This document shows, piece by piece, positions 5,023 to 39,882 of a stretch of 39,882 nt of DNA. Within the stretch, counting starts at the first letter, position 1. Every line of letters begins with the position of its first letter. The stretch covers positions 1 to 39,882 of the forward strand of contig CALPMC020000018.1 in the NCBI GenBank assembly GCA_943324565.2, given 5' to 3'. The translations under genes and the position numbers were made by a program. The notes below the pieces were generated by a model. The model saw nothing but the letters and a program-made list of their open reading frames with translations, was not told the origin of the DNA and did not search any database. Source of the DNA: Chitinophaga pinensis. GTDB taxonomy: Bacteria; Bacteroidota; Bacteroidia; Flavobacteriales_D; Crocinitomicaceae.

Positions 5023-8000
5023 TTATTGTTTGATAATTCTAACTGTTCTTTCTTCTAACTCATTTCTAAGTTTGATGAAATAAACACCAGTTACCACATT
5101 TGATAAATCTAAAGAGTAAACGCCGTTTCCATTAATCAATGAACCGAAGTTAGCAACCGCTCTTCCATTCATATCTTCAACAGTTACATCATATTTTGCA
5201 GTTGTTTGATCAATCACAATATTGATTGCTCCTGTTGTTGGATTAGGATAAACATTGAAACTTAAAGTGTTTTCTTCTAAACCGATGTAATCAACGATTA
5301 CACAAGAAGAAGTTGCAGAACAGTTAGTTGAATTAGTTACAATTACAGCATACGAACCATTGATTGGTGCTGTATATGTTGCACTTGTCGCTCCAGTTAT
5401 TGGTGTGTTTGTAGCACAATCAATCCATTGGTATGAAGCACCTGTTGAAGCAACTAATGTTCCTGTACCATTTCCGTTATCCGTTGCAGTTGCAGTAGGA
5501 GTTGGGTTAATAGTCAAGTTCAATGTAACTAACGAATCACAACCTGCAGCATTTGTTAATGTTTGCGTGTATGTTCCAGAAGCCGTGTAAGTTGTTCCAT
5601 TTGTCCAAGTGAATGATCCACAAGTTGCAGCTGTAGTAATTGAACTATTGTTTCCAATTGTCAATACTAACGTTGCAGTTGAATCACATCCTGCAGCATT
5701 TTGAGCTGTGAATGTATAAGATCCACTTGTTGTGTATGTTGTTCCGTTCCATTGGTATGAAGCACATTCAGAAACAACCGTGTTAGATGAACTTGTGTTG
5801 TTGATTGTTAAATTCAATGTTACCACTGAATCACATCCGAACGCATTTGTTAATGTATCAACATATACTCCTGATGTTGTGTATGTTGTACCATTCCAAG
5901 AATATGAATCACAAGCTACTTCTGTAACAGAAACTGCATCTGGTTGACCAATTGTCAAGTTCAATGTTAAAGTTGAATCACATCCTGCAACGTTTGTTAA
6001 TGTTTGAACATACGTTCCAGAAGCAGTATATGTTTGGTTGTTTAACGTGAATGTTTGACAAGCTACCTCATTCAACGTTGAAGTTGTAGGTTGAGTAATT
6101 GTTAAATTCAACGTTGCAACTGAATCACATCCTGCAGCATTTACTAAAGTTTGTGTGTGTGTTCCGGATGCTGTGTACGTAACGTTATTAGTCCAAGTGT
6201 AAGAAGAACATTGAGTAACATTCGTAGTTGAAGTTGAACTATTGTTTACAGTAACTAAGAAACTTGCATTAGCTGAACAAGCACCAGCAACACCATAAAT
6301 ATGTACTGTTTGCGTTGTTGTAATGTTACTAGTTAAAACTGTTCCTCCACCATTCGTTGCCGTTCTGTAGCTTAATACCAAACCTGCATTATTTGATGGC
6401 GTTAACTCAGCTAAAGTTGGTAATGTGTAAGTATTACAAACTACTTGAGCTCCTGGATTTACTAAAGAAATAGGCGCACATTGTGTTGAAACCGTTACTG
6501 GTACAGACCAAGCGCTTACGTCTCCATTTCCACAATTCGCTCTATAATAAACTTGATAGGAACTGTTAGGAATTAAACCTGACAATGTTGTACTTGTTGT
6601 AGCTGAAACATTTGAAACCAAAGTTCCTGTTCCTTGTGTAAATCCAACTGGACCGTATTCGAAATCGAAAGCAGATGCAGTAGAACAACCCAAAGACCAG
6701 TTTACATCAGCACTTGTTGTTGTAGTTGTTCCTCCTACTAATAATCCTGGAGAAGGACAAGTTGGCGCTGGAGCTATTGTAATTAAGTAATCCTCTGTTT
6801 CACCAAATCCATAATTCGTACAAGGTTGAATTGATTGACCATCTTGGAAAAATGCTCCTCTAATTCTCATTCTGTGAACACCTACTGGAGGTGTACATGC
6901 TAAAGCAATTACGAATGAAGAAGAAGCATTCACTTGACCTGGAGTATTACCAGTTCCAATTGTACCATTAGTTGCACCTATTAATTCCGTAGCATCAAAA
7001 ATACCATCGTCATTGTAATCAATCCAAGCAGCATAACCTTGAGAGCCATATTCACCTGTTGATATATTCAATGTATATGAACTAGATGGTAATAGTGTTG
7101 CCGTATAATTTGGTTGACCATTAAAGAAAGTATAAGAAGGACCACCAGCTACAAAACCTGTATTGTTAGCTAAAGTAGTTCCAACTATTTCAACATTCGA
7201 AATTAAATCTCCGTCTGAAGTTCCAAATGTATAAGTCGGCACACAATAACAATCTGTTGGTGCAGACATATTGATTGTCAATAGAGATGAATAACTCGGT
7301 GTTCCGCCACAAGAAACGATAGACAATCTATAGATAGTTGTGTCATTTTGGCTTGTTGTTAAAGTCAAACCATTTTCACCTGCGATATCAATAAAGTTTT
7401 GACCGTTATCAATTGAAAACTGCCATTGATAGGTTAAACCTTGAGAACTTCCTGTGTAGTTTGCTGAGATTTGGAAGTTAACACCTTCACAAACGTTAGT
7501 TACAGATGAAACTGTACTTACACCTACTGGAGCAACATTTCCTAAAATTGTAATTGTTACATCTGCAGATCCTGGTGCGTTTGTACAACCTGTCGTTTGA
7601 TTTGTGTAAGATATTGAATAAACAGTTGTTTCTGTTGGAATAACAGCTTGTGTGAAGATGTTAGTTCCAGAAGCAATTGTTGTTGTTCCTTGTGTATTTG
7701 TTGAAGTCCAAACCGTTGTATAGTTAGCTGGCGGAGCAAAACGATACGCAAATGGGTTAGTGATAGGATTAGTTGGACTTGCAACCGTACCCGATGCAAA
7801 TGCTAAAACACCAATAGTACCATCACCATTGTTTACACCTACCAATTTGTTTCTATCAACATTCGTCGAAGAAGTTACGTGAACATCAATTTCACCAACA
7901 GTTTCATAGAAAATTGCTTGGGCTGTACTTGTTTCTAATGCATTATATTCTTGAACATTTTCGTAACTCACAATGAATTTTCTATTTGGTATTGTTCCCT

Positions 8001-11000
8001 CAGTCCAATATTTGATTGTTCCACCTGTTGCAACCCCTAAATCATTATCCATTGCTAAAACAGCAACCATATTAAACGGCTCAGTTGTACTAGGTAAAGT
8101 AGTAAATGTAAAGTCTCCTACGTTTGGCGTTGCACCAAAGAAAACAGTTCCATTTGTTCCAATTGAAATAGTGTTGTATGAAGTTCCGAAGAAGTTAAAG
8201 TTAAACCCTACAGGAATACCGCTCCATCCACCATCATCTAAACCAAAACCTAAATCAGTAGGAACAAGTTCAGCTCCACCAGTTGCTAAAGTAACCGCAT
8301 TAACTGGAGCAGTTAAAGGAGCATGAGGAATTGAAGTACTTGTAAAGTTTCCAGCAGATAAACCTGTACTGATGTTAGCCGCTGTTCCTGGACATACACC
8401 GTTTACGTCTGAAGTTACGTTTGCAGTAGGTAAAGGATAAACTGAAATACTAATTGTTGATATTGATACACAACCGGTTCCAACTTCTAAAGCAGTTAAA
8501 TTAACAGATGTAGATTGACTTACAGTTACATCAATTGATGTTGCAGTTTGATTAGAAATCGTTGCATTAGGATTAGAAAGTGACCAAGTAAATCCATAAT
8601 TTGCAGTAGTCGTTGCAGTAATTGTAGCTGTACCACCAGTTCCACAGAAAGGTGCTTGATTATTTGTCAAGGTAACAACTGGAGCATCTGTAACCGTTAC
8701 AGTTACAGGAACTCTAGCACTTGAACAAGTTCCAGCAAAAGTTTCTGCTGCAACAAAATAAGTTGTTGTTTGAGAAATTGTTGGTGTTGTAAACGGAGAA
8801 CCAGTTCCTAATGGAGTTGTTGCAGTTGCGGTAGCATACCAAGCAATAGTTGATCCTGCTGAACCAACTGCGCTTATTGTAGCTGTTCCTACTCCACATC
8901 TTGTTGCTGGTGTTGTACTTGTAATCTCATTTGAGTAATTGACAGCAACTTCACTTGAGTAAGCTGGTGTACCATTACAAGCAGTGATTTTACATCTGTA
9001 AAAAGCATTTTGAGTTGGAATTAATGAATAAACATCATTTGTTGCACTAGCAACATCATTCCAAACACCACTTACTGTTGAAACTTGCCATTGGTAAACA
9101 ATTCCGTTAGTAGTACCTGTGTAATCTAAGTTAAAATTTACAGATTGACCATCACAGAAAGATGTTGAACTAGCAATAGTATTAACTCCAGTTGGTGCAA
9201 CATCCGAATAGATTAACATATTCACTTGTGCAGAACCTGGTGCATTCGTACAACCAGTTGTTTGATTCGTATATGAGATAGCATAATCAGTTGTAATTGC
9301 TGGAGTAACTGATTGACTAAAAATATTTGTACCCGAAGCAATTGTTGTTGTTCCATTTAAATTAGTTGCTGCCCATGTAGTTGAGTAGTTTGCCGGTGGT
9401 GTAAAACGATAAGCAAAAGGACTAGCAATTGGATTGGTTACTGAGGATGCTGTTCCAGACGCATAAGCTAAAACCCCAATAGTTCCATCTCCATTATTTA
9501 CTCCAACCAATTTGTTTTGATCCTGGTTCGTTGAAGAAGCAACATGAACTTCAATTACTCCAATAGTTTCATAAAAAATTGCTTGTGCAGTACTAAATTT
9601 AGTATCACCATATTCTTTCACATTCTCATAACTTAAAACAAATTTTCTATTTGGTGCATACCCCGTTGTCCAATATTTAATTGTTCCTCCTGTTGCTCCG
9701 GTTAAATTGTTATCCATCGCAAGAACGGCAACCATGTTAAATGGTTCAGTTGTACTAGGAAGAGTTAAAAATTCATAGTCAGTTACATCTGGTGTTGTAC
9801 CAAAGAAAACAGTACCGTTAGTTCCAACACTAATTGTAGAATAATTTGTACCGAAAAAATTAAAATTAAACCCAACTGGAACACCACTCCAACCTCCATC
9901 ATCTAAACCTGTCCCTAAATTTCGAGTTACAAGAGCAGTGCCTGCGTCTACTAGTTTTATTGCGTTAGCTGGAGCTGTTAATGGTGAATGATTTATTGAA
10001 ACACTACTAAAATTTCCAGCGCTCAATCCAGAACCAATTGTTGCAGAAGTTCCAGGACAAACACCAGAAGCGGTAGTTGTTACAGTTGCAGCAGGTAAAG
10101 GATAAACCCCTAAAGAATAATATGCAATAGAAACACAACCATTTGCATTTGTTCCACTTAATTTAAAATCAGATGTAGCAGATACTGTTGCATTAACTGC
10201 AGTTCCTGAAGTAGATTCTAAAGATCCAGTTGCTGGGTTCAATGCTGACCAAGAATAAGCCATTGAAGCATCAGTTGATGAAGCAGTTAATACCGCTGTT
10301 CCACCAGTACCACAGAAATTATTTAATGACGATGTTATTACTACTGCTGGGCCTAAATTTGTTGAATCTAAATAAGGTGTTCCATTAATTGATTGAACTA
10401 ACGTATTGTTATCTGTTGCAGAAACTGACCATGTAACATTACCATTAATTGGCGTTACCGTCGGAATAATTCCTGTCCAAGTATCAGCAGACAATCCGCC
10501 AATATTTGTTGAATTCGACATTGTAACTGGAGTCTGAGCAGTTCCATTAACTGAATAATTTAAAACTACTGAGGTAATTGCAGCTCCACCAGGAATAACA
10601 ACAACTGAAATGTTTCTTGGAATATTAACACATACATTTCCTGTTGGAGAAATAGCCAAACCAGTAAGCGTTGCCGCTGATTTTGTTCCCATTACCATAA
10701 ATGCTGGAATTGTAGAAGTTGGTGATGATGTTGTTAAAGAAGTTGGTGTAGCAGTAGTTAAAACTCCTCCAACCAAACTATATGTTCCAGTCAAAGTTGA
10801 ACTTCCAGCAATACCGTCTGCAGTACCAGGAGCATCATTCAATCTAATTGCTGTTGTTGCATCTGATGCAAAATTAGTTTCACCAGAAGTAAAAGATGTT
10901 GCCCAATATCTATTTGTATTTAATGAAGCAAATAATGCACTTGGAGTACCTCCAGTTGCGGCATCAACAACTTCCGACTTAATAACTACAACACCTGTTG

Positions 11001-13677
11001 TTAAAGGATTTATTAAACTCATTGGGTTATATCCTGATTTTCCTACAGGGAAGAGATAAGTTGAACCAGTAGCTAAATTTAAAGGTAAGGTTCTTTCAAT
11101 AGCTCCTTTCAAAAAGCTTGTTGCACTTCCTCCTGTTACGGAATTCGCAGCAGTATTAGTAACAGTAATTGTATTTCCTGTGTTATCTAAAATACCAGCT
11201 GTTAATGCAAGTACACCTGTTGTTCCAGCTAACGTTCTACTAAAAGGCATAGTTACAACTCCTGATGCAAATGTATTGTTGATTGTTAAAGAAACTGGAG
11301 AATTTGTTGATGGATATTCAGTGTTCGTAATAGTTTGGTTAGCTGCAGTACTATTGTAAACTAAAGACGATGTTGTTGAATTATAGGTAATAATTCCTGA
11401 CCCACTTAAATTACCATTAGAAATAGTTAATCTGTTTAAATTAATATTTCCGTTTAATGTTACGCCAGTTGTATTATTGACTCTTACACCAATGCTTCCA
11501 GTGTTGGTTGCTGGTGTAAATGATTGAGCAGATGTGCCATTAAACTCTAAATTACCATTTGCATTTGTTTGAGTTAATGTTCCACCTGTTTGAATGAAAT
11601 TTCCAGCTGTTCTTAAATTAGCGGCACCGTTAAAAGCAACATCTATAGTTCCTCCATTTAATGTCACATTTCCAGCAACATTTACTGAACCTGTTGTACT
11701 GGAAACTTCAAAAGTTCCATTATTGACAATAAGGTCTCCGTTTATTGTAACTGTACCACCTGTCGTAGCCCTGAACTTTCCTGTGTTTATTGCTTGAATA
11801 GTTAAATTACCTTTTACAACTGCTGTTGTAGTTGCACCCCAGAAACTCATAGTTCCTGTTGCATTCGGACAATTGTAAGTAAAATTACCAAATGATTGAT
11901 TGTTATTAGTGGCCGTTGTTGTTGAACTTGTAATTCCTGAAATTGTTAAGTTAGAAGTAGCTGCCCAAGTTGCTAAAGGCACTGGTGGAGCTCCTGTTGT
12001 TGCTCCTGTTGAATTACAAGTAGAACCAGCTAAGAATGATAAAGTTGCAACTGAACCAACTAAAGAGTTTCCAGCAAATCCTAGATTAATAATCCCTGTT
12101 GCACTAACAGTTACAAGGGTGTTTGTACCACCTGTCGTAGTAATTGTATTACCAGCATTGCCAGAAAAAGAAACTGTACCATCGATTAGTCCAGTGTTTG
12201 ATGCTCCTGAAAAAGCGAACGCTACTGGTTGAGTTGCACTAGTTAAAAGCAATGTACTACCAGCATCAACAATAAAATCATTTCCAACACCACCACTAAC
12301 TGTAATAGTTCTTGTCGCAGTACTTGAAGATTGTAAAGTTAATGTTGTATTACTAGTAACTACAAATCTACCAACTGTATAATTTGCATCAATAGTATTT
12401 ATTGTTACTGCTCCGCCTGGAGTTGTTAATGCTCCGTCAACTATTAATACATCTGTAGTATTAGGTGTTGTTCTAGTTAAACCAGTTCCGTCAGCCAATG
12501 TATTCCAGTTTGCCGGAGTATTCCATGTGCTTGAAGCTGCACCAACCCAAAAATAAGTTGTCGCTGCTAAAGTTGATTCACTTCCGGTAACACCAGTACC
12601 TGGAATAACAGCCTCACTTGATGCTTGAATGTTATAATAAAATAAGGTACCTGGAGACAACCCTGTTTGTGGAAGGTTGTATGCAGTTCCAGTTCCAGCT
12701 GTTGAAGTTGATGGAACATTAACAACACTAACGTTTTGAGTAAAAGCAGCATCTGTTGCTCTTGTAACAATAAAAAAGGTTTCGTCTGTTGAATTGTCAA
12801 TCCAATTTGGAGTAATTGTTGATGATGTTATTGCAGAAAATGTTAAGCTCGTTGGAGCAGCAGGAATAGATGTAGAATTAGGTGTCCAAGAAAAAGTTCT
12901 TAAACTTCCGTTGGTTGTTCCCGCTAAATTTGCTATAGATACTAAAGGAGCAAAAGAATTAGTTACTGGTGCTGTTGCTAATGTGAACGAAGGTGTTGCT
13001 GAAACAGTAACATATCCTGCTGTTGTAGCAGTATTACTTGATGATATGAAGATTGATCTTGATACATTTGCTGATGAGGAATTTATAATGTTACCATAAA
13101 TATATTCCACAACACCAGTTGATTCATTTAGAATCATTTGCATATTTCCTGAGTTGGTTATATCGTTATAAAATGCATAAAACTGATTCCATTCAATAAC
13201 AAACTTTCTATTAGGAGCTGTACCAACAACTAATGATGTCATTCCATTGTTTAGTTCATTATCACCTGCCATTAGTGCAAATGTCGCATTCCCAGCTGAA
13301 AAAGCTGTTACAGCAGAACCGCCAATCGCTGTTGCTCCTGAAGAAGTATGCAATCTTGCTTGCCCATTTGAGTTGGCACTTATATGAGTATATTTTGTAC
13401 CCATAAAATAAAAATCAAACCCGATAGCAAATACTGGAACTCCAGTGTCATCATTGTTTCCGGTTATTAATGTTGTTGCACCTGTCATATCCTGAAGTGA
13501 ACCAGAAGTTGAAGTTGCAAACGTGTAATTAGCTAAACTCTGTGCATTAATCCTTGTAAAGGATAATACAAATAGTAGTAGTGTTGCAAGGTAAAAACCA
13601 ACCTTGCTTTGTTTGGTTGTAAAAAGCGGATTTGTCCATCTTTCATTAAACCTTAACTGTGGTTTTGTTTTTGACAT
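5023..13677 (-). CDS. Giant (2884 aa) T9SS type A sorting-domain surface protein with FN3/Ig-like, GEVED-like and tandem repeat modules
   Basis: Single uninterrupted ORF; C-terminus LSFNVYPNPTTGAINIVIDQTTAKYDVTVEDMNGRAVANFG...GVYFIKLRNELEERTVRIIKQ is a T9SS CTD; GEVED-like segment WIDYNDDGIFDATELIG...HRMRIRGAFF...GFGETEDYLITI; WVGAASSTWNTPANWN motif typical of Bacteroidota adhesins. Confidence 0.92.
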   Translation of the reverse strand: MSKTKPQLRFNERWTNPLFTTKQSKVGFYLATLLLFVLSFTRINAQSLANYTFATSTSGSLQDMTGATTLITGNNDDTGVPVFAIGFDFYFMGTKYTHISANSNGQARLHTSSGATAIGGSAVTAFSAGNATFALMAGDNELNNGMTSLVVGTAPNRKFVIEWNQFYAFYNDITNSGNMQMILNESTGVVEYIYGNIINSSSANVSRSIFISSSNTATTAGYVTVSATPSFTLATAPVTNSFAPLVSIANLAGTTNGSLRTFSWTPNSTSIPAAPTSLTFSAITSSTITPNWIDNSTDETFFIVTRATDAAFTQNVSVVNVPSTSTAGTGTAYNLPQTGLSPGTLFYYNIQASSEAVIPGTGVTGSESTLAATTYFWVGAASSTWNTPANWNTLADGTGLTRTTPNTTDVLIVDGALTTPGGAVTINTIDANYTVGRFVVTSNTTLTLQSSSTATRTITVSGGVGNDFIVDAGSTLLLTSATQPVAFAFSGASNTGLIDGTVSFSGNAGNTITTTGGTNTLVTVSATGIINLGFAGNSLVGSVATLSFLAGSTCNSTGATTGAPPVPLATWAATSNLTISGITSSTTTATNNNQSFGNFTYNCPNATGTMSFWGATTTAVVKGNLTIQAINTGKFRATTGGTVTINGDLIVNNGTFEVSSTTGSVNVAGNVTLNGGTIDVAFNGAANLRTAGNFIQTGGTLTQTNANGNLEFNGTSAQSFTPATNTGSIGVRVNNTTGVTLNGNINLNRLTISNGNLSGSGIITYNSTTSSLVYNSTAANQTITNTEYPSTNSPVSLTINNTFASGVVTMPFSRTLAGTTGVLALTAGILDNTGNTITVTNTAANSVTGGSATSFLKGAIERTLPLNLATGSTYLFPVGKSGYNPMSLINPLTTGVVVIKSEVVDAATGGTPSALFASLNTNRYWATSFTSGETNFASDATTAIRLNDAPGTADGIAGSSTLTGTYSLVGGVLTTATPTSLTTSSPTSTIPAFMVMGTKSAATLTGLAISPTGNVCVNIPRNISVVVIPGGAAITSVVLNYSVNGTAQTPVTMSNSTNIGGLSADTWTGIIPTVTPINGNVTWSVSATDNNTLVQSINGTPYLDSTNLGPAVVITSSLNNFCGTGGTAVLTASSTDASMAYSWSALNPATGSLESTSGTAVNATVSATSDFKLSGTNANGCVSIAYYSLGVYPLPAATVTTTASGVCPGTSATIGSGLSAGNFSSVSINHSPLTAPANAIKLVDAGTALVTRNLGTGLDDGGWSGVPVGFNFNFFGTNYSTISVGTNGTVFFGTTPDVTDYEFLTLPSTTEPFNMVAVLAMDNNLTGATGGTIKYWTTGYAPNRKFVLSYENVKEYGDTKFSTAQAIFYETIGVIEVHVASSTNQDQNKLVGVNNGDGTIGVLAYASGTASSVTNPIASPFAYRFTPPANYSTTWAATNLNGTTTIASGTNIFSQSVTPAITTDYAISYTNQTTGCTNAPGSAQVNMLIYSDVAPTGVNTIASSTSFCDGQSVNFNLDYTGTTNGIVYQWQVSTVSGVWNDVASATNDVYSLIPTQNAFYRCKITACNGTPAYSSEVAVNYSNEITSTTPATRCGVGTATISAVGSAGSTIAWYATATATTPLGTGSPFTTPTISQTTTYFVAAETFAGTCSSARVPVTVTVTDAPVVTLTNNQAPFCGTGGTATITATTTANYGFTWSLSNPNATISNQTATSIDVTVSQSTSVNLTALEVGTGCVSISTISISVYPLPTANVTSDVNGVCPGTAANISTGLSAGNFTSTSIPHAPLTAPVNAVTLATGGAELVPTDLGFGLDDGGWSGIPVGFNFNFFGTSYNTISIGTNGTVFFGATPNVGDFTFTTLPSTTEPFNMVAVLAMDNDLGVATGGTIKYWTEGTIPNRKFIVSYENVQEYNALETSTAQAIFYETVGEIDVHVTSSTNVDRNKLVGVNNGDGTIGVLAFASGTVASPTNPITNPFAYRFAPPANYTTVWTSTNTQGTTTIASGTNIFTQAVIPTETTVYSISYTNQTTGCTNAPGSADVTITILGNVAPVGVSTVSSVTNVCEGVNFQISANYTGSSQGLTYQWQFSIDNGQNFIDIAGENGLTLTTSQNDTTIYRLSIVSCGGTPSYSSLLTINMSAPTDCYCVPTYTFGTSDGDLISNVEIVGTTLANNTGFVAGGPSYTFFNGQPNYTATLLPSSSYTLNISTGEYGSQGYAAWIDYNDDGIFDATELIGATNGTIGTGNTPGQVNASSSFVIALACTPPVGVHRMRIRGAFFQDGQSIQPCTNYGFGETEDYLITIAPAPTCPSPGLLVGGTTTTTSADVNWSLGCSTASAFDFEYGPVGFTQGTGTLVSNVSATTSTTLSGLIPNSSYQVYYRANCGNGDVSAWSVPVTVSTQCAPISLVNPGAQVVCNTYTLPTLAELTPSNNAGLVLSYRTATNGGGTVLTSNITTTQTVHIYGVAGACSANASFLVTVNNSSTSTTNVTQCSSYTWTNNVTYTASGTHTQTLVNAAGCDSVATLNLTITQPTTSTLNEVACQTFTLNNQTYTASGTYVQTLTNVAGCDSTLTLNLTIGQPDAVSVTEVACDSYSWNGTTYTTSGVYVDTLTNAFGCDSVVTLNLTINNTSSSNTVVSECASYQWNGTTYTTSGSYTFTAQNAAGCDSTATLVLTIGNNSSITTAATCGSFTWTNGTTYTASGTYTQTLTNAAGCDSLVTLNLTINPTPTATATDNGNGTGTLVASTGASYQWIDCATNTPITGATSATYTAPINGSYAVIVTNSTNCSATSSCVIVDYIGLEENTLSFNVYPNPTTGAINIVIDQTTAKYDVTVEDMNGRAVANFGSLINGNGVYSLDLSNVVTGVYFIKLRNELEERTVRIIKQ
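5510..6213 (-). repeat. Five tandem ~147-bp (49-aa) coding repeats, consensus C.SYTWNGTTYTASGTYTQTLTNAAGCDSTVTLNLTI
   Basis: Unit starts (plus-strand att/agtcaagttcaatgt...) at about 5510, 5658, 5806, 5950 and 6098; each unit encodes two cysteines and a GCDS motif. Confidence 0.9.
6775..7255 (-). other. GEVED-like domain within the giant T9SS protein (approximate bounds)
   Basis: Translation CVPTYTFGTSDGDLISNVEIVGT...AAWIDYNDDGIFDATELIG...GVHRMRIRGAFFQDGQSIQPCTNYGFGETEDYLITI. Confidence 0.7.
7265..8652 (-). repeat. Copy 2 of a ~1.39-kb intragenic module duplication
   Basis: Encodes CGTGGTATITATT...GLDDGGWSGIPVGFNFNFFGTSYNTISIGTNGTVFFGATPNVGDFTFTTLPSTTEPFNMVAVLAMDNDL..., colinear with the copy at 8935-10325. 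Confidence 0.85.
8935..10325 (-). repeat. Copy 1 of the ~1.39-kb intragenic module duplication
   Basis: Encodes CGTGGTAVLTASS...GLDDGGWSGVPVGFNFNFFGTNYSTISVGTNGTVFFGTTPDVTDYEFLTLPSTTEPFNMVAVLAMDNNL..., colinear with the copy at 7265-8652. Confidence 0.85.
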
Positions 13678-16226: not shown

Positions 16227-16640
16227 ATGTATCCAGCAGAATTAGTACAACCAATGAAAGACGATCTTACGAATGTAGGATTCACTCAACTAACAAACGC
16301 TTCAGAAGTTGACAATATGATTTCAAATACACAAGGAACTTTATTAATGGTCGTGAACTCTGTTTGTGGTTGCGCGGCAGGCAATATGCGTCCTGGAGTG
16401 AAATTATCTGTTCAACACGAAAAAGCACCTAATGGATTAGCTACTGTTTTTGCAGGAGTTGATACAGAAGCTGTTGCACAAGCGCGCAAGTATTTCTTGC
16501 CTTACCCTCCATCTTCGCCATCAATTGCTTTGTTCAAAGATGGTAAACTAGTTCATTTCTTAGAGCGTCACCACATTGAAGGTGGAACAGCTCAAATGAT
16601 TGCTGCGAATCTTGCTGCAGCTTACGACGAATTTTGTTAA
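16227..16640 (+). CDS. BrxA/BrxB (YphP/YqiW) family bacilliredoxin
   Basis: MYPAELVQPMKDDLTNVGF..., VNSVCGCAAGNMRPG (CGC active-site motif), FLERHHIEGG. Confidence 0.93.
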   Translation: MYPAELVQPMKDDLTNVGFTQLTNASEVDNMISNTQGTLLMVVNSVCGCAAGNMRPGVKLSVQHEKAPNGLATVFAGVDTEAVAQARKYFLPYPPSSPSIALFKDGKLVHFLERHHIEGGTAQMIAANLAAAYDEFC

Positions 16641-16641
16641 A

Positions 16642-16959
16642 ATGAAACGCATTTATCATTTAAGTACCTGCGACAATTGCAGAAAATTGATAAAAGCATT
16701 CAACCCAAGTGCTGATTTCGAGTTGGTAGATATTAAAACCAGCTCGATTGATGCGCCTACTTTGGATTTATTAAAAGCAAAAGTTGGTTCCTATGAAGCT
16801 TTGTTTTCTAAAAGAGCCATCAAATACAAAAGTCTTGGATTAAAAGACAAAAACCTCAGCGAAGATGACTTTCGCAAACTTATTTTAGAAGAATACACCT
16901 TTCTTAAACGTCCCGTTTTGATTGATGGGGATAAAATTGTAGTAGGAGGATTGGGATAG
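16642..16959 (+). CDS. ArsC/Spx-family reductase-like protein
   Basis: MKRIYHLSTCDNCRKLIKAF (CxxC), LFSKRAIKYKSLGLKDKNLSEDDFRKLILEEYTFLKRPVLIDGDKIVVGG. Start trimmed from the listed 16600 because the TAAaATG junction follows the bacilliredoxin stop. Confidence 0.85.
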   Translation: MKRIYHLSTCDNCRKLIKAFNPSADFELVDIKTSSIDAPTLDLLKAKVGSYEALFSKRAIKYKSLGLKDKNLSEDDFRKLILEEYTFLKRPVLIDGDKIVVGGLG

Positions 16960-17079
16960 AAAATAAACAGTTAATATTGAAGAATAAATTTGATTTATTT
17001 CTTAGTTTAACTTTTAGAAATTCAAGTTAAAATCGTTTAATAACAAATATTTCCTGCTACAATTTTTAGCGAAACTTTT

Positions 17080-17148
17080 TTGGCCTTGAATTTCTTGGTT
17101 TTAGCTACTGAACTGAAACTGTTTATTTTTAGAATTTCTGTAAGAACA
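17080..17148. repeat. Dispersed intergenic repeat, copy 1
   Basis: ttggccttgaatttcttggttttagctactgaactgaaactgtttatttttagaatttctgtaagaaca; recurs with 3 substitutions and 1 indel at 39813-39882. Confidence 0.9.
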
Positions 17149-17170
17149 TTCTTAAAAATTTCAGTTTCAG
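17113..17170. repeat. Long imperfect inverted repeat (23-nt arms)
   Basis: CTGAAACTGTTTATTTTTAGAAT ... ATTCTTAAAAATTTCAGTTTCAG, outer 9 bp perfect, 18/23 positions complementary. Confidence 0.75.
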
Positions 17171-17183
17171 AAAGGAGTTAAAA

Positions 17184-17232
17184 TTGTTCGCTACGAGTTG
17201 TAAACACTTATATAACAATGATTTGCGAACAA
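17184..17232. repeat. Inverted repeat TTGTTCGC...GCGAACAA
   Basis: Perfect 8-bp arms 17184-17191 and 17225-17232. Confidence 0.6.
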
Positions 17233-17281
17233 AAATAAATTCAGAGCCTTGATTTTTACCTTCGGTGCTGCTTGCGCGGTG

Positions 17282-17305
17282 ATTCTTTTGATCAAGCAAA
17301 AGAAT
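17282..17305. repeat. Stem-loop ATTCTTTTG-ATCAAG-CAAAAGAAT
   Basis: Perfect 9-bp stem with 6-nt loop upstream of the histidine kinase gene. Confidence 0.75.
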
Positions 17306-17375
17306 GGCAAAAAACTTTAATAAAACTTAGTTGTAAATAGGTAAAATTCAATTAATTATTTCAGAAAAAACTAAT

Positions 17376-17383
17376 TACCTTCG
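17376..17383 (+). promoter_or_regulatory. Putative -7 box TACCTTCG, 7 nt from ATG of the histidine kinase
   Basis: TANNTTYG match; ATG at 17391. Confidence 0.45.
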
Positions 17384-17390
17384 TACCTCT

Positions 17391-18911
17391 ATGGACATCT
17401 ATTCTTCCAAACAACGCTGGAAAATCGCACTGATTTTAATTTCATTGCTAATCATTGGTACATCGCTGTTTGTGTCTAATTCGATGGTTTCAAAAATTGC
17501 TGAACGCGAACGCGACAAAGCCAAACAATGGGCAGACGCTATCAAGAAAAAAGTGGAATTAGTGAAGTTAACGACACAGATTTTCACTGCACTTCGAGAA
17601 AAAGAGCGCGAAAAAATCCAAACAGTGGTTGATGCGCAATTAACGATTCTAAATCCCTCCGATTTATCGCTGAATCAAGACATTGACTTTGCACTAAAAA
17701 TCATTGAATCCAACAAAGATATTCCTGTTATTCTCTTGAATGACGACGGAACGCTTTCTCAACATCGGAATCTGCCAAAAAGTACAACAAATGACTCAAT
17801 TCCAAGCGATAATGAAATCGTTACATTAGCAAACGATTGGAAAAAAGAAGGACGATTTTTCACGATTACGGTTTTTGGTGATATGAAAATGGATTTTGTC
17901 TTTGGTGTTTCGAGTGAATTATTGCGATTAGAACACGAAAGCGACTCTTTGATAAAATCGTTTAACAAAGAATTGATTACCAATAAAACGCTGATTCCTG
18001 TTTTGTTGATGGACCAAAACAATAAAAAAGTGGAGGCAACAAATCTTCCTAAAAATCAAATTTCAAAGGAAAATCTTTCTAAAACAATTGCAAGCTTTAA
18101 AGAACAAAATGAACCTATTCTAATCAATTTCGGTACAGGAGAAAAAATCTTGTATTTCAGCGATAGTCCTGAGATTAAGCAATTAATTTGGTATCCATAC
18201 ATTCAATTTGGGGTGATGGGTTTAGTCGTTATCGTTGGATATCTGATGTTTTCTACTTTCCGAAAAGCGGAGCAAAATCAAGTTTGGGCAGGGATGGCAA
18301 AAGAAACAGCGCATCAATTGGGTACTCCCCTATCTTCATTAATGGCTTGGTTGGCCTATTTGGAGTCTTCGAATACCGATCCAATGATTGTCAACGAAAT
18401 GCAAAAAGATCTGGACCGATTAGAAAAAATCACCGACCGCTTCTCTAAAATTGGTTCAGGCGCAAAATTGGTTAATGAAGATTTGGTGGTGACAATAGGC
18501 AACAACCTAGAATATTTGCGCGCTCGTCTTTCTGATAAGGTAAAAATCGTGTTTAAAGTAGTAGACGAAGAACCGATAATTGTTCCTCATAATTCATCTT
18601 TAATTGAATGGGTTGTAGAGAACATCTGTAAAAACGCTGTTGATGCGATGGGAGGAAAAGGTAACCTCACCATTGAAATGCAAAAAGTTCCCGAATGGAT
18701 TCACATCGACATTAGCGACACTGGAAAAGGACTGACTCCTAAACAATTCAAAACGATTTTTCAACCCGGATTTTCAACTAAAAAACGTGGCTGGGGCTTG
18801 GGTTTAACACTTGTGAAACGCATCGTTGAAGAAAACCACAAAGGAAAAGTTTTTGTGATGAAATCCGAAATAGATAAAGGGACGACTTTTAGGATTAGTA
18901 TACCGCTTTAG
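17391..18911 (+). CDS. Membrane-bound sensor histidine kinase
   Basis: Two TM segments; DHp MAKETAHQLGTPLSSLMAWLAYL; HATPase boxes ENICKNAVDAMGGKG, ISDTGKGL, KKRGWGLGLTLVKRIVEENHKG. Confidence 0.93.
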   Translation: MDIYSSKQRWKIALILISLLIIGTSLFVSNSMVSKIAERERDKAKQWADAIKKKVELVKLTTQIFTALREKEREKIQTVVDAQLTILNPSDLSLNQDIDFALKIIESNKDIPVILLNDDGTLSQHRNLPKSTTNDSIPSDNEIVTLANDWKKEGRFFTITVFGDMKMDFVFGVSSELLRLEHESDSLIKSFNKELITNKTLIPVLLMDQNNKKVEATNLPKNQISKENLSKTIASFKEQNEPILINFGTGEKILYFSDSPEIKQLIWYPYIQFGVMGLVVIVGYLMFSTFRKAEQNQVWAGMAKETAHQLGTPLSSLMAWLAYLESSNTDPMIVNEMQKDLDRLEKITDRFSKIGSGAKLVNEDLVVTIGNNLEYLRARLSDKVKIVFKVVDEEPIIVPHNSSLIEWVVENICKNAVDAMGGKGNLTIEMQKVPEWIHIDISDTGKGLTPKQFKTIFQPGFSTKKRGWGLGLTLVKRIVEENHKGKVFVMKSEIDKGTTFRISIPL

Positions 18912-28878: not shown

Positions 28879-31800
28879 ATGAAAACGAAAAGAATTGATA
28901 ATTTGAGATTTATAAGTGCTTTAGCATCAGCTTTTTTACTGGTCTTAATGTTCACAATGGAGGCTTATGGACAAACGGGTCCAGAACTTCCTTTTCCGAT
29001 TATTAACCCGATGAATCCCTATCAAAACTTACCTCAAAGTTTTGATTTAGGGGATCCAACATCTTTGCAACAAAAAATTACCTACGACCCAATTACAGGA
29101 AATTACATCTTTACGGAAACATTAGGTAATGGGATTTTATACCGACCACCGTCGATGATGACTTTGGATGAATATTTAAAATACGAAGAAAAAAAATCTC
29201 AAACCTTAGATTGGCAAGAAATAATTGAAGAAGAAACAGCTGAAAATAGGACATTTGAATTACCAATTAAAATTGGAAGTAAGGTTTTTGAAAACTTCTT
29301 CGGATCTGACGAAATCAAAATTATTCCAGGTGGAAATCTAGAACTTTCGCTTGGTGCAACTTCTTCCCGTTACGATAACCCAATGTTACCAATGCGTCAA
29401 CGTCGAGTTACACGTTTCGATTTCAACCAAAATATCAACTTGGATGTCACGGGTCAAATCGGGACAAAACTGAAGTTGAATATGAAGTATAATACTGGTG
29501 CGACCTTCGATTTTGAAAATATCTCGAAATTGGAACACACTGGAAATGAAGATCAAATCCTTCAGAAAATTGCGCTTGGTAACGTAGCTTTAGATTTACC
29601 GACCACTTTAATTCAAGGTTCACAAACCCTTTTTGGTGCGAAAACAACTTTGAAGTTTGGTCGTGCTACAGTTGACTTAATTGCTGCTTCATCGAAAGGG
29701 AAAAGAACAGAAATCAACATTACAGGAAAAGCACAAATTCAAAAATTTGAGTTAAGTGCTGATAATTACGAGGCGAATCGTCACTATTTCTTAAATATGT
29801 ATCACCAACAGCATTACGACACAGCGATGTCAACACTGCCTGTAGTGAGTTCAACAACATTTATTACACGAATTGAAGTTTGGGTTACGAATAGAACATC
29901 TGTTACTGAAAACACACGTAACGTTTTAGCTTTTGCCGATTTAGGTGAATCGAAACCTGAAAACTGGGAAGGAAATCCTGGAAATGCCTCAGCAAATGAA
30001 ATTCCTGATAACGATGCGAATGGTTTATATGAATGGGCAGCTAATCAACCTTTAGTGCGTGGGTTTTCGAACTCAGTAACTGTTTTAGCTTCTCAAGTAA
30101 ACGCACCAGGTCCTTTTAACCAAGCAGTTGAATACGAGAAAGTTGAAAATGCACGCAAACTTGCAGAAAGTGAGTTTTCTTACAACTCTTTACTTGGATA
30201 TATTTCATTAAACACTTCTTTGAATAATGATGAAGTTCTTGCTGTTGCCTATGAATATACTTACAGGGGTGAAACTTACCAAATTGGTGAATTTTCAACA
30301 GATGGAGCTAGTGGACAAGAAGCTTTAATCTTAAAGTTACTTAAACCAACAATTACAAGTCCTAAAAACAAAGTTTGGGATTTGATGATGAAAAACGTTT
30401 ATTCAATTGGTGCTTTCCAAGTAGATCAAACAGGATTTAAAATTGACATCCTTTACAACAACCCTGAAACGTCTGTTCCTGCGCCTTTCGTTCCTTTAGA
30501 TGGTGTTGATGGAAAACAGATTGTTACTTTGTTAGATATGGACAAAATCAATCAAAACAACCAACCTTTTGCAGATGGTGTTTTTGATTTTGCTCCTTTC
30601 AACCAAATTGCTAACAAAATAGACAACGGGGGAACAATCAACAAGAAAAACGGACGTATTTATTTCTCAACGGTTGAACCTTTCGGAAAAACGTTAGCAG
30701 ATAAATTACAAGATGCTGGTATATCTCCAGTTATCATTAACAAAGTTGCCTTCACCGAATTATACGATTCAACTAAAACAGCAGCACAACAAATTCCGAG
30801 TAAAAACAGATTTGTATTTAAAGGTGAATATCAATCTTCAATTAGCTCAAATATTCCATTAAATGTGATGAACGTTCCACAAGGTGCAGTAAGTGTTACA
30901 GCAGGAGGAATCAAATTAATTGAAGGTCAAGATTATACCATTGATTATGCTTCAAGTTCTGTGAGAATCTTAAACACAGGAATTCTAGAATCAAATACAC
31001 CTATTAAAATTTCGATAGAAAGTAATTCTGTTTTTGGATTCCAAGCGCGGTCAATGATTGGAGGTCACTACGCTTATCGTTTCAATGAAAACATTAAGCT
31101 TGGGGCAACTTGGGTGAGAATGATGGAACGTCCAGTTACTCAAAAAGTAGATTTTGGAAGCGAACCATTCAAAAACAACGTAATCGGTGCTGATTTTGCC
31201 ATTCGTACTGATGTTCCATTCTTGACGAAATTAGTAGATATGCTTCCAGTTATTTCTACGAATCAAATGTCAACATTCTCATTTACGGGGGAAGTGGCGC
31301 ATTTAATTCCAGGGCAACCAAGAGCAATAAATAAAGAAGGAACTTCGTACATCGACGATTTTGAAGCAAGTCAAAGTGCGATTGATTTAAAAAGTGTTAC
31401 CGCTTGGAGATTGGCGTCAATTCCACAAGGTCAACCAAACTTATTTCCTGAGGCAACAAAAAAAGATTTAAGCGCTGGTTTCAAACGTTCAAAATTAGCT
31501 TGGTACACGATTGATCCTTTATTCTATCAAAGCAATCAATTGACACCTCAGCACATTAAGCAAAATCCGCAAATGTTGTATGATAGTAGAATGCGTTTGG
31601 TAAATCAAATCGACATTTTCCCGAATCTTCAACAACAATATGGTTCCATTCCAAACGTTGCTGTTTTAGATTTAGCTTACTATCCAAAGGAAAGAGGTTA
31701 TTATAATTACGATACAACCAATACTGTTGATACTTCGGGGCTTTTCATCAATCCAGAAAATCGTTGGGGAGGAATTATGCGCGCTTTGACAACGAACGAT

Positions 31801-34800
31801 TTCGAGATGGCAAATATTGAATTCATTCAATTTTGGGTGCTTGATCCATTCAATACAGATGCAGAAGCGGTAAATCCAAACTCGCCTCATACAGGAGGAG
31901 ATTTATACTTCAACTTAGGTAATATTTCCGAAGATATTCTTCCAGATTCTCGTAAAAGCTTTGAAAATGGCTTACCACCAGATTCGAATTCAACGCTCTC
32001 AAATAACGTTGATACAACTTTTTGGTCTAGAATTTCAACTCAACAAATTGTTGTAAATGCATTTGATAACGATGAAGCCGCACGATTAAATCAAGATGTT
32101 GGTTTAGATGGTTGGAAAAGTGAAGATGAACGTATTGCTTATCAAAACTTTGTGAATTGGGTACAAGGAAACTCAGTTTTAAATCAAGCTACTAAAGATA
32201 AAATGGTTGCCGATCCTTCAAATGATGATTATACCTACTATTTGGATGACCGTTACGACCAAGCAACTTTAGATATTTTAAAACGATACAAAAAGTTCAA
32301 TGGTATGGAGGGGAATTCTCCAACAACTAATATTTCAAATAGCTTAAATGCCGATGGTTATCCAACGCAAGCAACAAATGCTCCAGATATTGAAGATATC
32401 AATGGTGACAATAACTTATCTGAAAGTGAAAGTTATTTCCAATACCGAGTAAGTTTACGACCAAACGATTTGCAAACTGTGGGTCAGAATTATATTACAA
32501 ATACACAGGTTTATCAAAACGGAACAAAAACAGAAACATGGTATCAATTCAAAATTCCAATTAAAGATTTTGAGAAACGTGTAAATGGAATTCAAGACTT
32601 TAGATCTATCCGATTTATGCGAATGTTTATGAAAAACTTCGATGAAGAAGTGGTTTTACGTTTTGCTAGATTAGAATTGATTCGTGGGGAATGGAGACGT
32701 TATTACGACGATTTAACACAACCAGGATTGAGTGTTCAAACTGATCCAAACTTAACATCATTTAATATTGCAGCGGTAAACATCGAGGAGAATGCACAAC
32801 GTTTACCTGTAAATTATGTGGTTCCACCTGGAATTGTTCGTGAGGTAGACCCTTCGCAAGTTTATCAACGACAGATGAATGAGCAATCTTTATCCTTAGA
32901 AGTATGTAATTTACAAGATGGTGATGCAAGAGCAGCCTACAGAAATGTTCAATTCGACGTTAGAACTTACAAGAAAATGAAAATGTTTGTTCACGCTGAA
33001 GGTGTCAATCAAAATCAATTAAAAGATAAAGATCTCACATTATTCGTTCGCTTAGGTACAGATTACGTTGAAAATTATTATGAATACGAATTACCTTTAG
33101 ACGCAACAGATTGGGGAACAACACTTCCTGAAGGTATTTGGCCAGAATCTAATAATGTCGAAATTATCTTTGATGATTTACTTGACTTGAAAAAGGAACG
33201 AAACAAAAAGATTGAAGATGGAATTACTGGTGTCTCTTACGTTGTTGAGTATGCTAAAACAGATCCGCAAAACAATCAACGCAAACTAAAGGTCAAAGGA
33301 AGTCCGAACTTACAAGGTATGCGGACGATTATGGTCGGAGTGCGTAATCCTTTGAAAAATGACCCAGATAATATTTGGCAACCCGACAATGGTGATGCGG
33401 AATGTGCAATTGTTTGGATTAATGAAATGCGCTTGACAGATTTCGTGAGTGAAGGAGGTTCGGCAGCTATTGGTCAAATGCAATTACAATTAGCTGATTT
33501 CGCAACGGTTTCCGCTTCTGGAAATTATTCAGGAATCAACTGGGGAAGTGTAGAAAGCCGCGTGCAAGACCGTCAACGTAATGAGCGAATTGGAGTAGAT
33601 ATGAATTCTACGGTTCAATTGGGACAATTTTTCGGAAAACAAGCGCGTGTTTCATTACCATTTTTCTATGGATATTCATTGGGGATTATCAATCCGGAAT
33701 ACGATCCATTTAATCCAGATGTTAAACTAGCAGATTACGATCCGGCAACTAGAAAAGAGCGTGCGAAATTAGGTCAAGATTTCACCTCAAGAAAATCGTT
33801 CAACTTCACTAATGTTAGAAAAGAAGCTAAAGCTGGAGCAAAACCACATTTCTATCGTATTTCAAACTGGTCGGCAACGTATGCGTATGCTGAAAATCTG
33901 AGACGCGATTTCAATATCACTGAAGATTTAACAAAAACGTGGACAGGCGCATTGAATTACAATTACACGTTCCCTGGAAAAGCAATTGAACCATTCAAAA
34001 AAATCAAAGCAATCGAAAAATCAAAATGGTTGCAATTGGTTCGTGAGTTTAATTTATTCCTGATGCCTAAAAACATCTCATTCACCAATGATTATTCACG
34101 TATCTACAATCAAAGACAGGTTAGAAATATCATCGTTCCAGATTATCAATTTGATGCTATTTTCTTAAAGCGTTTTGATTGGAATCGAAATTATCAAATT
34201 GGATATGACTTAACTAAGAATATCAAGACCACCTTTACAGCAACGAATAAATCCATTTTTGAGGAAGGAAATCACGGGGTTGATCGCATAAATAACCCTG
34301 AAGGATATCGCGAATTTTTGGATACCCTAAATTCTCAAATTAAATCTTTTGGAAAAACGATGGAATATAACCAAAGTTATAGCTTGAGTTATAACATTCC
34401 TTTCGATAAATTCCCTTTAACCAATTGGATTTCTGCTAATGCTAAATATTCTGGCACTTACAACTGGCAACGATCTCCGCTTGGTCAAACTGCTTTTGGA
34501 AACACAATTCAAAATAGTAGAACGATCAATATGACAGGTCAAGCGAATTTTGTTACGCTTTATAACAAAATCCCATACTTCAAAAAAGTTCTTGGTGATG
34601 GAAAAGGAAGAGCTGTAACTGCTAAGATCAATGGTGACGGTAAGCCAAGCCAACCTACTAAACCAGCACCTCCAAAACCAAAAGAGGAATTCAAGCCCTG
34701 GAAGCCAGTTGAAGAAATGACTCCAAAAGAATTAAAAAAATACGAACGCTTGAAAAAACGATTTGAAAAACGATTAGAGCGCGAAGAAAAACGCAAGGAA

Positions 34801-36219
34801 AAAGAAAAAGAAGAGGTTCAACCTGCAGCTGGATTAGGTGTTCGATTGTTAACGAGTGTTAGAAATGTATCCGCAACTTTTGCGCTTAATGATGGTACAA
34901 TGTTACCAGGGTTTGGAGAAGAAACAAGTGTTCTAGGAATGAACGGAAACACCCTTGGTTTATCTCCTTTTACATTTGGAAAACAAGCATATAATATATT
35001 GGGAAGAGAAAATGGTTACAACGTTGCAACCCAATCTCGCGACAATAACTGGCTAGTTCAAAACGAAAATTTAAACAGACAATTCACTACGACACATTCA
35101 GCCAACCTAACCGGAAAAGCGACTTTAGAACCTTTCAAAGATTTGAATATCAACCTAAGTTTAACTCGAAATTATGGACGTAATTCTGGAGAATTCTACC
35201 GTTGGAATAGCATTAGTGAAGCTTTCGAAAGTCAAAGTAAATTTGAAACTGCGCGCTTAACTTATTCAACAATAACTTGGAATTCTGCTTTTGTAAAACA
35301 AGGACGTGAGTATCAATCGGGTGTGTTCTCAAATATGTTAGCAAACAGACAAACAGTTTCACAATTGATTGGTGCACAAAATCAAAACTCTTCTTCTTTA
35401 CCAAGTGGTTATTACACTGGATATTCAGGGTCACAGCAGGATGTGGTAGTTGGAGCTTTCTTGACAGCTTACACAAACTCAAAAGTGAACGATAGAAATA
35501 TCAACCCAATTAAAAATATTCCCTTACCAAACTGGAATATCAATTACAGTGGATTGACACAATTTGCATTCACTAAAAACTTTTTGAAGTCCTTCAAATT
35601 GAATCACGCTTACACTTCATCTGTTTCAGTTGATGGAATGCAAACGAACTTAAATTCAACAACAGACGCTTTAGGTTTTGCAAATTCAGTGGATATCAAC
35701 AATAATTACATCTCGCCTTTGCAAGTTCAAAATGTTCGTATTTCTGAAAAATTTGCTCCGTTAATTGGAATTTTAGCAACTTGGAAAATCTTTGGTAAAA
35801 CATTGACAACAAATTTCGAATACAAGAAAAGTCGTGATGCAACCCTTTCATTGAACAATAATCAAGTAACTGAAAATTTGGGTGAAGAAATTACGTTTGG
35901 AACAGTATTAGTAGTACCAAAATTGAAATTACCAATTGATGGAATTAAACAAAATGATTTAATTATTAACCTGAACTTTAGTTACCGAGATAATTTAACC
36001 GTGATACGTAAAGTGGTTGAGAGCACAAATCAAGCAACTGCTGGTCAACAATCGATTTCATTTAAATTGGATGCGAATTATAAATTAACAGACCACTTAA
36101 CTGCAATTTTCTATTACGATCAATCGTTGAATATTCCTAAAGTTCAAACAAGTTATGTTACCGGTTCAATGAAAACAGGTATCACAATTCGCTTTGACTT
36201 GAACGCTTTGAAACAATAA
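28879..36219 (+). CDS. sprA: T9SS outer-membrane translocon / cell surface protein SprA
   Basis: 2446 aa, signal peptide, PFPIINPMNPYQNLPQSFDLGDP, LELSLGATSSRYDNPMLPMRQRR, ARSMIGGHYAYRFNENIKLGATW, YIDDFEASQSAIDL; immediately downstream of ruvA as is typical in Bacteroidota. Confidence 0.95.
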   Translation: MKTKRIDNLRFISALASAFLLVLMFTMEAYGQTGPELPFPIINPMNPYQNLPQSFDLGDPTSLQQKITYDPITGNYIFTETLGNGILYRPPSMMTLDEYLKYEEKKSQTLDWQEIIEEETAENRTFELPIKIGSKVFENFFGSDEIKIIPGGNLELSLGATSSRYDNPMLPMRQRRVTRFDFNQNINLDVTGQIGTKLKLNMKYNTGATFDFENISKLEHTGNEDQILQKIALGNVALDLPTTLIQGSQTLFGAKTTLKFGRATVDLIAASSKGKRTEINITGKAQIQKFELSADNYEANRHYFLNMYHQQHYDTAMSTLPVVSSTTFITRIEVWVTNRTSVTENTRNVLAFADLGESKPENWEGNPGNASANEIPDNDANGLYEWAANQPLVRGFSNSVTVLASQVNAPGPFNQAVEYEKVENARKLAESEFSYNSLLGYISLNTSLNNDEVLAVAYEYTYRGETYQIGEFSTDGASGQEALILKLLKPTITSPKNKVWDLMMKNVYSIGAFQVDQTGFKIDILYNNPETSVPAPFVPLDGVDGKQIVTLLDMDKINQNNQPFADGVFDFAPFNQIANKIDNGGTINKKNGRIYFSTVEPFGKTLADKLQDAGISPVIINKVAFTELYDSTKTAAQQIPSKNRFVFKGEYQSSISSNIPLNVMNVPQGAVSVTAGGIKLIEGQDYTIDYASSSVRILNTGILESNTPIKISIESNSVFGFQARSMIGGHYAYRFNENIKLGATWVRMMERPVTQKVDFGSEPFKNNVIGADFAIRTDVPFLTKLVDMLPVISTNQMSTFSFTGEVAHLIPGQPRAINKEGTSYIDDFEASQSAIDLKSVTAWRLASIPQGQPNLFPEATKKDLSAGFKRSKLAWYTIDPLFYQSNQLTPQHIKQNPQMLYDSRMRLVNQIDIFPNLQQQYGSIPNVAVLDLAYYPKERGYYNYDTTNTVDTSGLFINPENRWGGIMRALTTNDFEMANIEFIQFWVLDPFNTDAEAVNPNSPHTGGDLYFNLGNISEDILPDSRKSFENGLPPDSNSTLSNNVDTTFWSRISTQQIVVNAFDNDEAARLNQDVGLDGWKSEDERIAYQNFVNWVQGNSVLNQATKDKMVADPSNDDYTYYLDDRYDQATLDILKRYKKFNGMEGNSPTTNISNSLNADGYPTQATNAPDIEDINGDNNLSESESYFQYRVSLRPNDLQTVGQNYITNTQVYQNGTKTETWYQFKIPIKDFEKRVNGIQDFRSIRFMRMFMKNFDEEVVLRFARLELIRGEWRRYYDDLTQPGLSVQTDPNLTSFNIAAVNIEENAQRLPVNYVVPPGIVREVDPSQVYQRQMNEQSLSLEVCNLQDGDARAAYRNVQFDVRTYKKMKMFVHAEGVNQNQLKDKDLTLFVRLGTDYVENYYEYELPLDATDWGTTLPEGIWPESNNVEIIFDDLLDLKKERNKKIEDGITGVSYVVEYAKTDPQNNQRKLKVKGSPNLQGMRTIMVGVRNPLKNDPDNIWQPDNGDAECAIVWINEMRLTDFVSEGGSAAIGQMQLQLADFATVSASGNYSGINWGSVESRVQDRQRNERIGVDMNSTVQLGQFFGKQARVSLPFFYGYSLGIINPEYDPFNPDVKLADYDPATRKERAKLGQDFTSRKSFNFTNVRKEAKAGAKPHFYRISNWSATYAYAENLRRDFNITEDLTKTWTGALNYNYTFPGKAIEPFKKIKAIEKSKWLQLVREFNLFLMPKNISFTNDYSRIYNQRQVRNIIVPDYQFDAIFLKRFDWNRNYQIGYDLTKNIKTTFTATNKSIFEEGNHGVDRINNPEGYREFLDTLNSQIKSFGKTMEYNQSYSLSYNIPFDKFPLTNWISANAKYSGTYNWQRSPLGQTAFGNTIQNSRTINMTGQANFVTLYNKIPYFKKVLGDGKGRAVTAKINGDGKPSQPTKPAPPKPKEEFKPWKPVEEMTPKELKKYERLKKRFEKRLEREEKRKEKEKEEVQPAAGLGVRLLTSVRNVSATFALNDGTMLPGFGEETSVLGMNGNTLGLSPFTFGKQAYNILGRENGYNVATQSRDNNWLVQNENLNRQFTTTHSANLTGKATLEPFKDLNINLSLTRNYGRNSGEFYRWNSISEAFESQSKFETARLTYSTITWNSAFVKQGREYQSGVFSNMLANRQTVSQLIGAQNQNSSSLPSGYYTGYSGSQQDVVVGAFLTAYTNSKVNDRNINPIKNIPLPNWNINYSGLTQFAFTKNFLKSFKLNHAYTSSVSVDGMQTNLNSTTDALGFANSVDINNNYISPLQVQNVRISEKFAPLIGILATWKIFGKTLTTNFEYKKSRDATLSLNNNQVTENLGEEITFGTVLVVPKLKLPIDGIKQNDLIINLNFSYRDNLTVIRKVVESTNQATAGQQSISFKLDANYKLTDHLTAIFYYDQSLNIPKVQTSYVTGSMKTGITIRFDLNALKQ

Positions 36220-39709: not shown

Positions 39710-39812
39710 AATAAATTGTGTATTCGCAATCGTACCAGTAAAATACTTGAATTTTGAAAACTAAAGATTTATTCGAAGTGAGAACTATTTTGTGATTGAT
39801 AGCGAACAATGA

Positions 39813-39882
39813 TTGGCCTTGAATTTCATGGTTTTAGCTACTGAACTGAAATTGGTTTATTTTTAGGATTTCTGTAAGAACA
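39813..39882. repeat. Dispersed intergenic repeat, copy 2 (truncated by window edge)
   Basis: ttggccttgaatttcatggttttagctactgaactgaaattggtttatttttaggatttctgtaagaaca; near-identical to 17080-17148. Confidence 0.9.

Follow-up and report, generated by a model that had tools for sequence, protein, structure and literature searches.

The two copies of a non-coding repeat in the window (the whole 39,882-nucleotide stretch analysed, which is contig C18 of the 179 contigs of its own genome, G000) are best read as members of a MITE family that an IS1595-type IS would move in trans. The helices P1-P4 of the interior are dispensable for this movement, and the core that they form would be a passenger; copy 1 is a decayed insertion, and copy 2 is cut by the contig end. 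We give this reading as a whole a probability of about 0.92. This MITE, with its probable mover from the IS1595 family, belongs to a kind that is already known; the family itself is new.

A sequence-only reading of the window had paired positions 17080-17148 with 39813-39882, and alignment of the two segments gave exactly the 3 substitutions and 1 indel that it had reported. The three stem-loops it had drawn were also recovered, at 17113-17135/17148-17170 (23-nt arms, 78% complementary), at 17184-17191/17225-17232, and at 17282-17290/17297-17305 with the loop ATCAAG. The family sequence of copy 1 runs from 17082 to 17309. Its structured core (17082-17248, + strand), supported by the fold and by 26 near-complete copies in the same genome, contains P1 (GGCCTTGAATTT/AAATTCAGAGCC, 17082-17093 / 17237-17248), P2 (GGTTTTAGCTACT/AGGAGTTAAAATTG, 17097-17109 / 17173-17186), P3 (CTGAAACTG...CAGTTTCAG, 17113-17170, with an apical stem at 17126-17158) and P4 (TTGTTCGC/GCGAACAA, 17184-17232). 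The 7-bp direct repeat GCCTTGA lies at both bounds of the core (17083-17089 and 17246-17252, together spanning 17083-17252, + strand). The 3' segment (17249-17309, + strand) consists of an optional 22-nt module (ACCTTCGGTGCTGCTTGCGCGG, 17258-17279), which is missing from L031, the orthologous copy of a relative, and of the P5 hairpin (ATTCTTTTG-ATCAAG-CAAAAGAAT, 17282-17305), whose stem covaries among copies.

Copy 1 lies directly after the stop of an ORF at 16600-16959 (+ strand, own ATG probably 16642) whose product looks ArsC/Spx-like by eye, and it is followed by an ORF at 17391-18911 (+ strand) that had been labelled a putative sensor histidine kinase. The place of its left arm and left terminal inverted repeat (TIR), 16960-17081 (+ strand), is no longer recognisable as family: this segment matched none of the other family copies, and the match to the family HMM starts only at model position 77. 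The place of the eroded right arm is 17310-17390 (+ strand). Because G003 (L031) and VEQH (L091) carry the element at the same site, the insertion of copy 1 must be old, its arms having since eroded; in these relatives the arms are still partly recognisable, and the decaying left arm is still present in L091. A naked core without arms was rejected as a separate form, since armless copies such as copy 1 itself (L001) are better read as decayed. Copy 2 has a left TIR (TTGTGTATTCGCAATCGTACCAGTAAAAT, 39716-39744, + strand), its end set by alignment of young copies, which starts 67 nt past the stop of an ORF at 36812-39649 (+ strand); inspection by eye suggests that this ORF encodes a secreted protein with a T9SS-type C-terminus. 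The left arm and the initial part of the core follow at 39745-39882 (+ strand), and copy 2 appears short because the contig ends inside it. Two further ORFs in the window, at 5023-13677 (- strand) and 28879-36219 (+ strand), are very large (2884 and 2446 aa) and possibly encode secreted repeat proteins.

The suggestion of a repeat family proved right, and a count of two copies proved too low: blastn against the own genome returned 47 matches at about 35 separate places, 26 of them with a nearly whole core, at E-values down to 1e-102. The true copy number is probably higher than this count, because contigs C115 and C1, like C18, end within copies. Among 86 genomes of the genus the element was matched in 17, the other genomes being without a match. 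The records that carry it are of uncultured Flavobacteriales, and several of these come from lakes or other freshwater sites, going by the record titles. Relative to their flanking genes, 23 copies were convergent, 19 same sense, 14 antisense and 11 divergent, which suggests that promoter regions are avoided; the 19 same-sense and 14 antisense copies show no sense bias relative to codirectional genes.

Intact copies are about 385-410 bp long and have imperfect TIRs of about 22-28 bp that start TTGAGTGTTCGCAATCGTACCA... / TTGAGTGTTCGCAATCGTACC; the element starts with TTGAGTGTTCGCAATCGTACCAGTAAAATAC and ends with ...TATTGGTGGTAAGAAAGCGCACACTCAA, which form imperfect inverted repeats. The best copies in G009 are 97-99% identical, and their similarity stops sharply at the ends. 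A perfect 8-bp target duplication (TSD) was found in 8 of 29 copies, compared with 0.86% when the left flank of one copy was paired with the right flank of another, and 16/29 had a duplication with at most one mismatch, compared with 4.2% for swapped flanks; the limits of the duplications may be off by one A/T base. One empty site was found. At the locus occupied by the young copy L004, whose target duplication is ATTTAAGAT (element orientation), genome G057 (L151) is uninterrupted and has a single copy of the corresponding target sequence. The family shows four features of a MITE, namely dispersed copies without a transposase gene, TIRs, TSDs and an empty site. No ORF was conserved among the copies; minus-strand ORFs of about 75-85 aa in some copies were dismissed as chance, their frame being broken by modules of 11-23 nt, and in many copies a micro-ORF that starts with TTG behind AAAGGAG reaches its stop after 7 codons, as judged by eye. 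One locus, L160 (G018:C130), has three TIR-like ends within 1.2 kb (positions 264, 1233 and 1464), two of them preceded by atttacattt, and is possibly a larger composite or duplicated element.

In the own genome, the TIR pattern also marks a second, high-copy element where it stands at contig ends. This candidate parent IS has the ends TTGAGTGTCCGCAATCGTACCAGTAAA / TTGAGTGTCCGCTTTCATACCAGTAAA (TTGAGTGT-ended), at which contigs break, and it is known from these ends alone, its interior being collapsed and missing from the assembly. When broken contigs were paired by their flanks, four perfect 8-bp TSDs were obtained (C9/C11, C80/C75, C98/C59 and C33/C63). Right ends of the IS encode the C-terminal end of a DDE_Tnp_IS1595 protein (PF12762 at 40.9 and 35.6 bits, against a cut-off of 27), and a left end encodes the putative start of a zinc ribbon (PF12760, 23.9 bits in a 51-aa fragment, slightly below the cut-off of 25.4). 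In the IS1595 family, 8-bp duplications are usual, and the transposase of most elements combines a zinc finger with a DDE domain (PMC8101967). The MITE and the IS1595-family element of the same genome have TIRs in common, and both have 8-bp TSDs. Moreover, the TIR pattern was found in 11 genomes of the genus, each of them one of the 17 that carry the element; control patterns gave zero. Trans-mobilisation is the best explanation because the ends, the duplication and the genome are the same, and the element is probably a MITE mobilised by an IS1595-family transposase. This transposase would bind the shared ends and move the MITE in trans, by cut-and-paste or copy-out, and staggered cuts would yield the 8-bp duplication. 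An IS1595 transposase was not seen in several MITE-bearing genomes, where identical IS copies have perhaps dropped out of the MAGs or the element is perhaps inactive now. Inspection of the IS1595 elements of G004, G029 and G057 for a full-length parent found none with these ends. At least nine contig ends in the own genome (C9, C33, C60, C80 and C98; C11, C59, C63 and C75) are broken by the IS1595-type element.

Derivatives that consist of a TIR-bounded element without P1-P4 were found three times, twice in G009 and once in G089 (L157, L158 and L159; 245, 245 and 168 bp). They are flanked by 8-bp duplications of their own (TAGTTCAA, TATTGTAA and TAAACTTT). Because these derivatives have transposed, P1-P4 are dispensable for movement. 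In both 245-bp forms, which are those in G009, the junction runs across GCCTTGA, the 7-bp direct repeat present at both bounds of the core. This leaves two possible histories, an insertion of the core at GCCTTGA or its loss via slippage between the repeats.

The fold of the interior is a branched structure of four helices followed by a 3' hairpin. The minimum free energy was -65.9 kcal/mol, whereas dinucleotide shuffles averaged -46.5 +/- 4.6 kcal/mol (z = -4.2). In an RNAalifold consensus of 68 copies, P1 forms the outer helix, P2 and P3 together form a long arm, and P4 is also present; compensatory changes fall in P3 and P4. In the P3 apical stem, which lies outside this consensus, AA/TT occurred in 40 copies, GA/TC in 9 and GG/CC in 9, with one exception, and the mini-hairpins of the modules covaried as well (A-T 13, G-C 3, T-A 2). 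Of the 9 pairs of the P5 stem, 8.3 formed within a copy, compared with 6.4 +/- 0.16 for arms taken from different copies. The P5 loop also varies in parallel with an upstream strand, CTTGAT occurring with ATCAAG in 45 copies and CTTGAC with GTCAAG in 12, so a pseudoknot between the two is possible, as judged from these variants; a further combination, CTAGAT with ATCATG (12 copies), pairs poorly. In some copies, loops and joints are swapped for short palindromes, for example TCCGTCAGCTGACGGA, TCCGCCTCGGCGGA and TTCGCCGCGGCGAA, or for the tandem mini-hairpin AGCTTCGCTGCTACTTCGTGG. The idea that these small modules form a genome-wide repeat of their own was rejected, nearly all of them lying inside the element in the DNA sampled. 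All these counts treat related copies as separate, and compensatory changes can also be created by quasi-palindrome repair. In Rfam, no family was matched at gathering score, and cmscan at E up to 10 gave chance matches only.

Conservation was uneven along the element. Column identity among copies was 0.94-0.97 over most of P2/P3, falling to 0.80-0.86 in the left arm and to about 0.7 far out in the right arm; the P4 loop, at 0.77, was as variable as the arms. We compared six orthologous sites whose arms are closely related (two old pairs and a converted pair set aside) and counted 45/1017 differences in the arms and 17/1014 in the core, a divergence about 2.7-fold lower (p = 0.0004, positions within a site not being fully independent). 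Both older pairs had near-random arms and a core that was 12-15% different. In the orthologues L020 and L066, the arms agreed (8/169 differences) and the core had been exchanged for another subtype (26/168), likely by a gene-conversion event.

The account of this retention that holds up best, which we rate a little short of even odds, is that the core is a passenger only. Gene conversion would keep it uniform, and after the arms have diverged only the core would still be similar enough to recombine. The L020/L066 pair, with its matching arms and exchanged core, speaks for this account, as does the 22-nt module, which differs between copy 1 and its orthologue L031 and matches other copies. Conversion alone, however, explains neither why the P4 loop varies although it sits mid-core nor the repeated compensatory changes. 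A second account is that the core is a structured RNA or a cis-regulatory element, such as a 3'-UTR structure, a terminator or an sRNA, that is selected by the host after the MITE has landed while the arms decay. The compensatory changes in the P3 apical stem, P5 and the module hairpins would fit such a role, as would the greater divergence of arms than core at the six orthologous sites, the site-specific conservation inside the core and the better folding of the + strand in 82 of 89 copies, although this strand preference is nearly one data point, the copies being related. We nevertheless regard this account as unlikely, with perhaps one chance in a few, given the lack of an orientation bias with codirectional genes, the lack of an Rfam match, the absence of the element from most genomes of the genus, and the fact that gene conversion and hairpin-templated repair also give uniform, covarying stems. 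Slightly more doubtful still is the fuller proposal that the whole P1-P5 interior may be a structured RNA or RNA-level regulator that hitch-hiked in an IS1595 MITE, was retained by the host after arm decay and had its loops rebuilt by exchange of palindromic modules. We ascribe the larger share of core retention to gene conversion and a minority to selection on an RNA or regulatory role; under the MITE reading, the folded core would be a passenger made uniform by recombination between copies, by selection on the fold, or by both. The family provides a natural experiment, with the same element present with and without its folded core and with old insertions whose arms erode faster, and this allows host selection on a MITE interior to be tested against homogenisation by gene conversion. 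The core, which is retained, covarying and dispensable, is the part that deserves follow-up.

It is very improbable that the family is a REP/BIME-type repeat mobilised by a RAYT (Y1) transposase. The repeat is short, palindromic, intergenic and multi-copy, as such repeats are, but it has proper TIRs and 8-bp duplications, which already contradict mobilisation of the RAYT type, and the genome also has a DDE IS that shares its ends. The sequence-only reading had proposed something mobile, REP/MITE-like, or a structured RNA. Its MITE part stood, on the ends, TIRs, TSDs, empty site and candidate parent IS, and so did the structured part, on compensatory changes in several stems; a strict REP did not, the ends being DDE-type TIRs with TSDs and not RAYT hairpins. 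That reading had named two copies only, random ends and a lack of covariation as evidence against itself, and the family showed none of the three. Chance similarity, or a conserved promoter or terminator common to two loci, has nothing in its favour beyond the first two copies and is next to impossible given about 35 places, such low E-values and a transposon anatomy.

BOX and ERIC elements are intergenic and folded, BOX being modular and ERIC having optional inserts. Compared with them by description, the present element differs in that its ends and likely transposase are identified. The ISHwa6-related MITE of Haloquadratum walsbyi is 165 bp long, with 7 copies, 25-bp inverted repeats and 8-bp direct repeats (PMC3852290). 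Both elements are short and gene-less and have inverted repeats of about 25 bp, 8-bp duplications and an IS1595-type relative, but the present one is two to three times longer, has a branched folded core and resides in another host phylum, the two being compared by description and not by TIR sequence. QMITE2 of Coxiella burnetii, with direct repeats of 7-9 bp, TIRs of 23-29 bp and a folded core of 113-145 nt (PMC10969869), is similar by description in all three respects; the core described here exceeds that size and contains palindromic modules that can be exchanged. MITECca01 of Cardinium is a Bacteroidota MITE with many, mostly intergenic copies and a parent IS in the genome (PMC9769881). 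The host phylum, the many and mostly intergenic copies and a parent IS in the same genome are common to both, but the parent of MITECca01 is of the IS982 family and not IS1595. With the present family, a poorly known group of uncultured bacteria from fresh water gains a MITE, probably IS1595-mobilised, which also accounts for some of the breaks in the assembly of its own genome.

At one locus of the own genome (L115, G000:C70, 6279-9225), about five full or partial copies lie within 3 kb, some directly adjacent, which suggests nested or repeated insertion. Records bearing the element carry conflicting labels (Chitinophaga pinensis, Lishizhenia tianjinensis and Flavobacteriales bacterium), and MAGs labelled with the first two names (CAMDGP, CAMAZP and CAMDLY) bear the same element family. 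G003 and G009, which have loci in common with two of the labelled records, are placed in one genus, so some of the labels look wrong.
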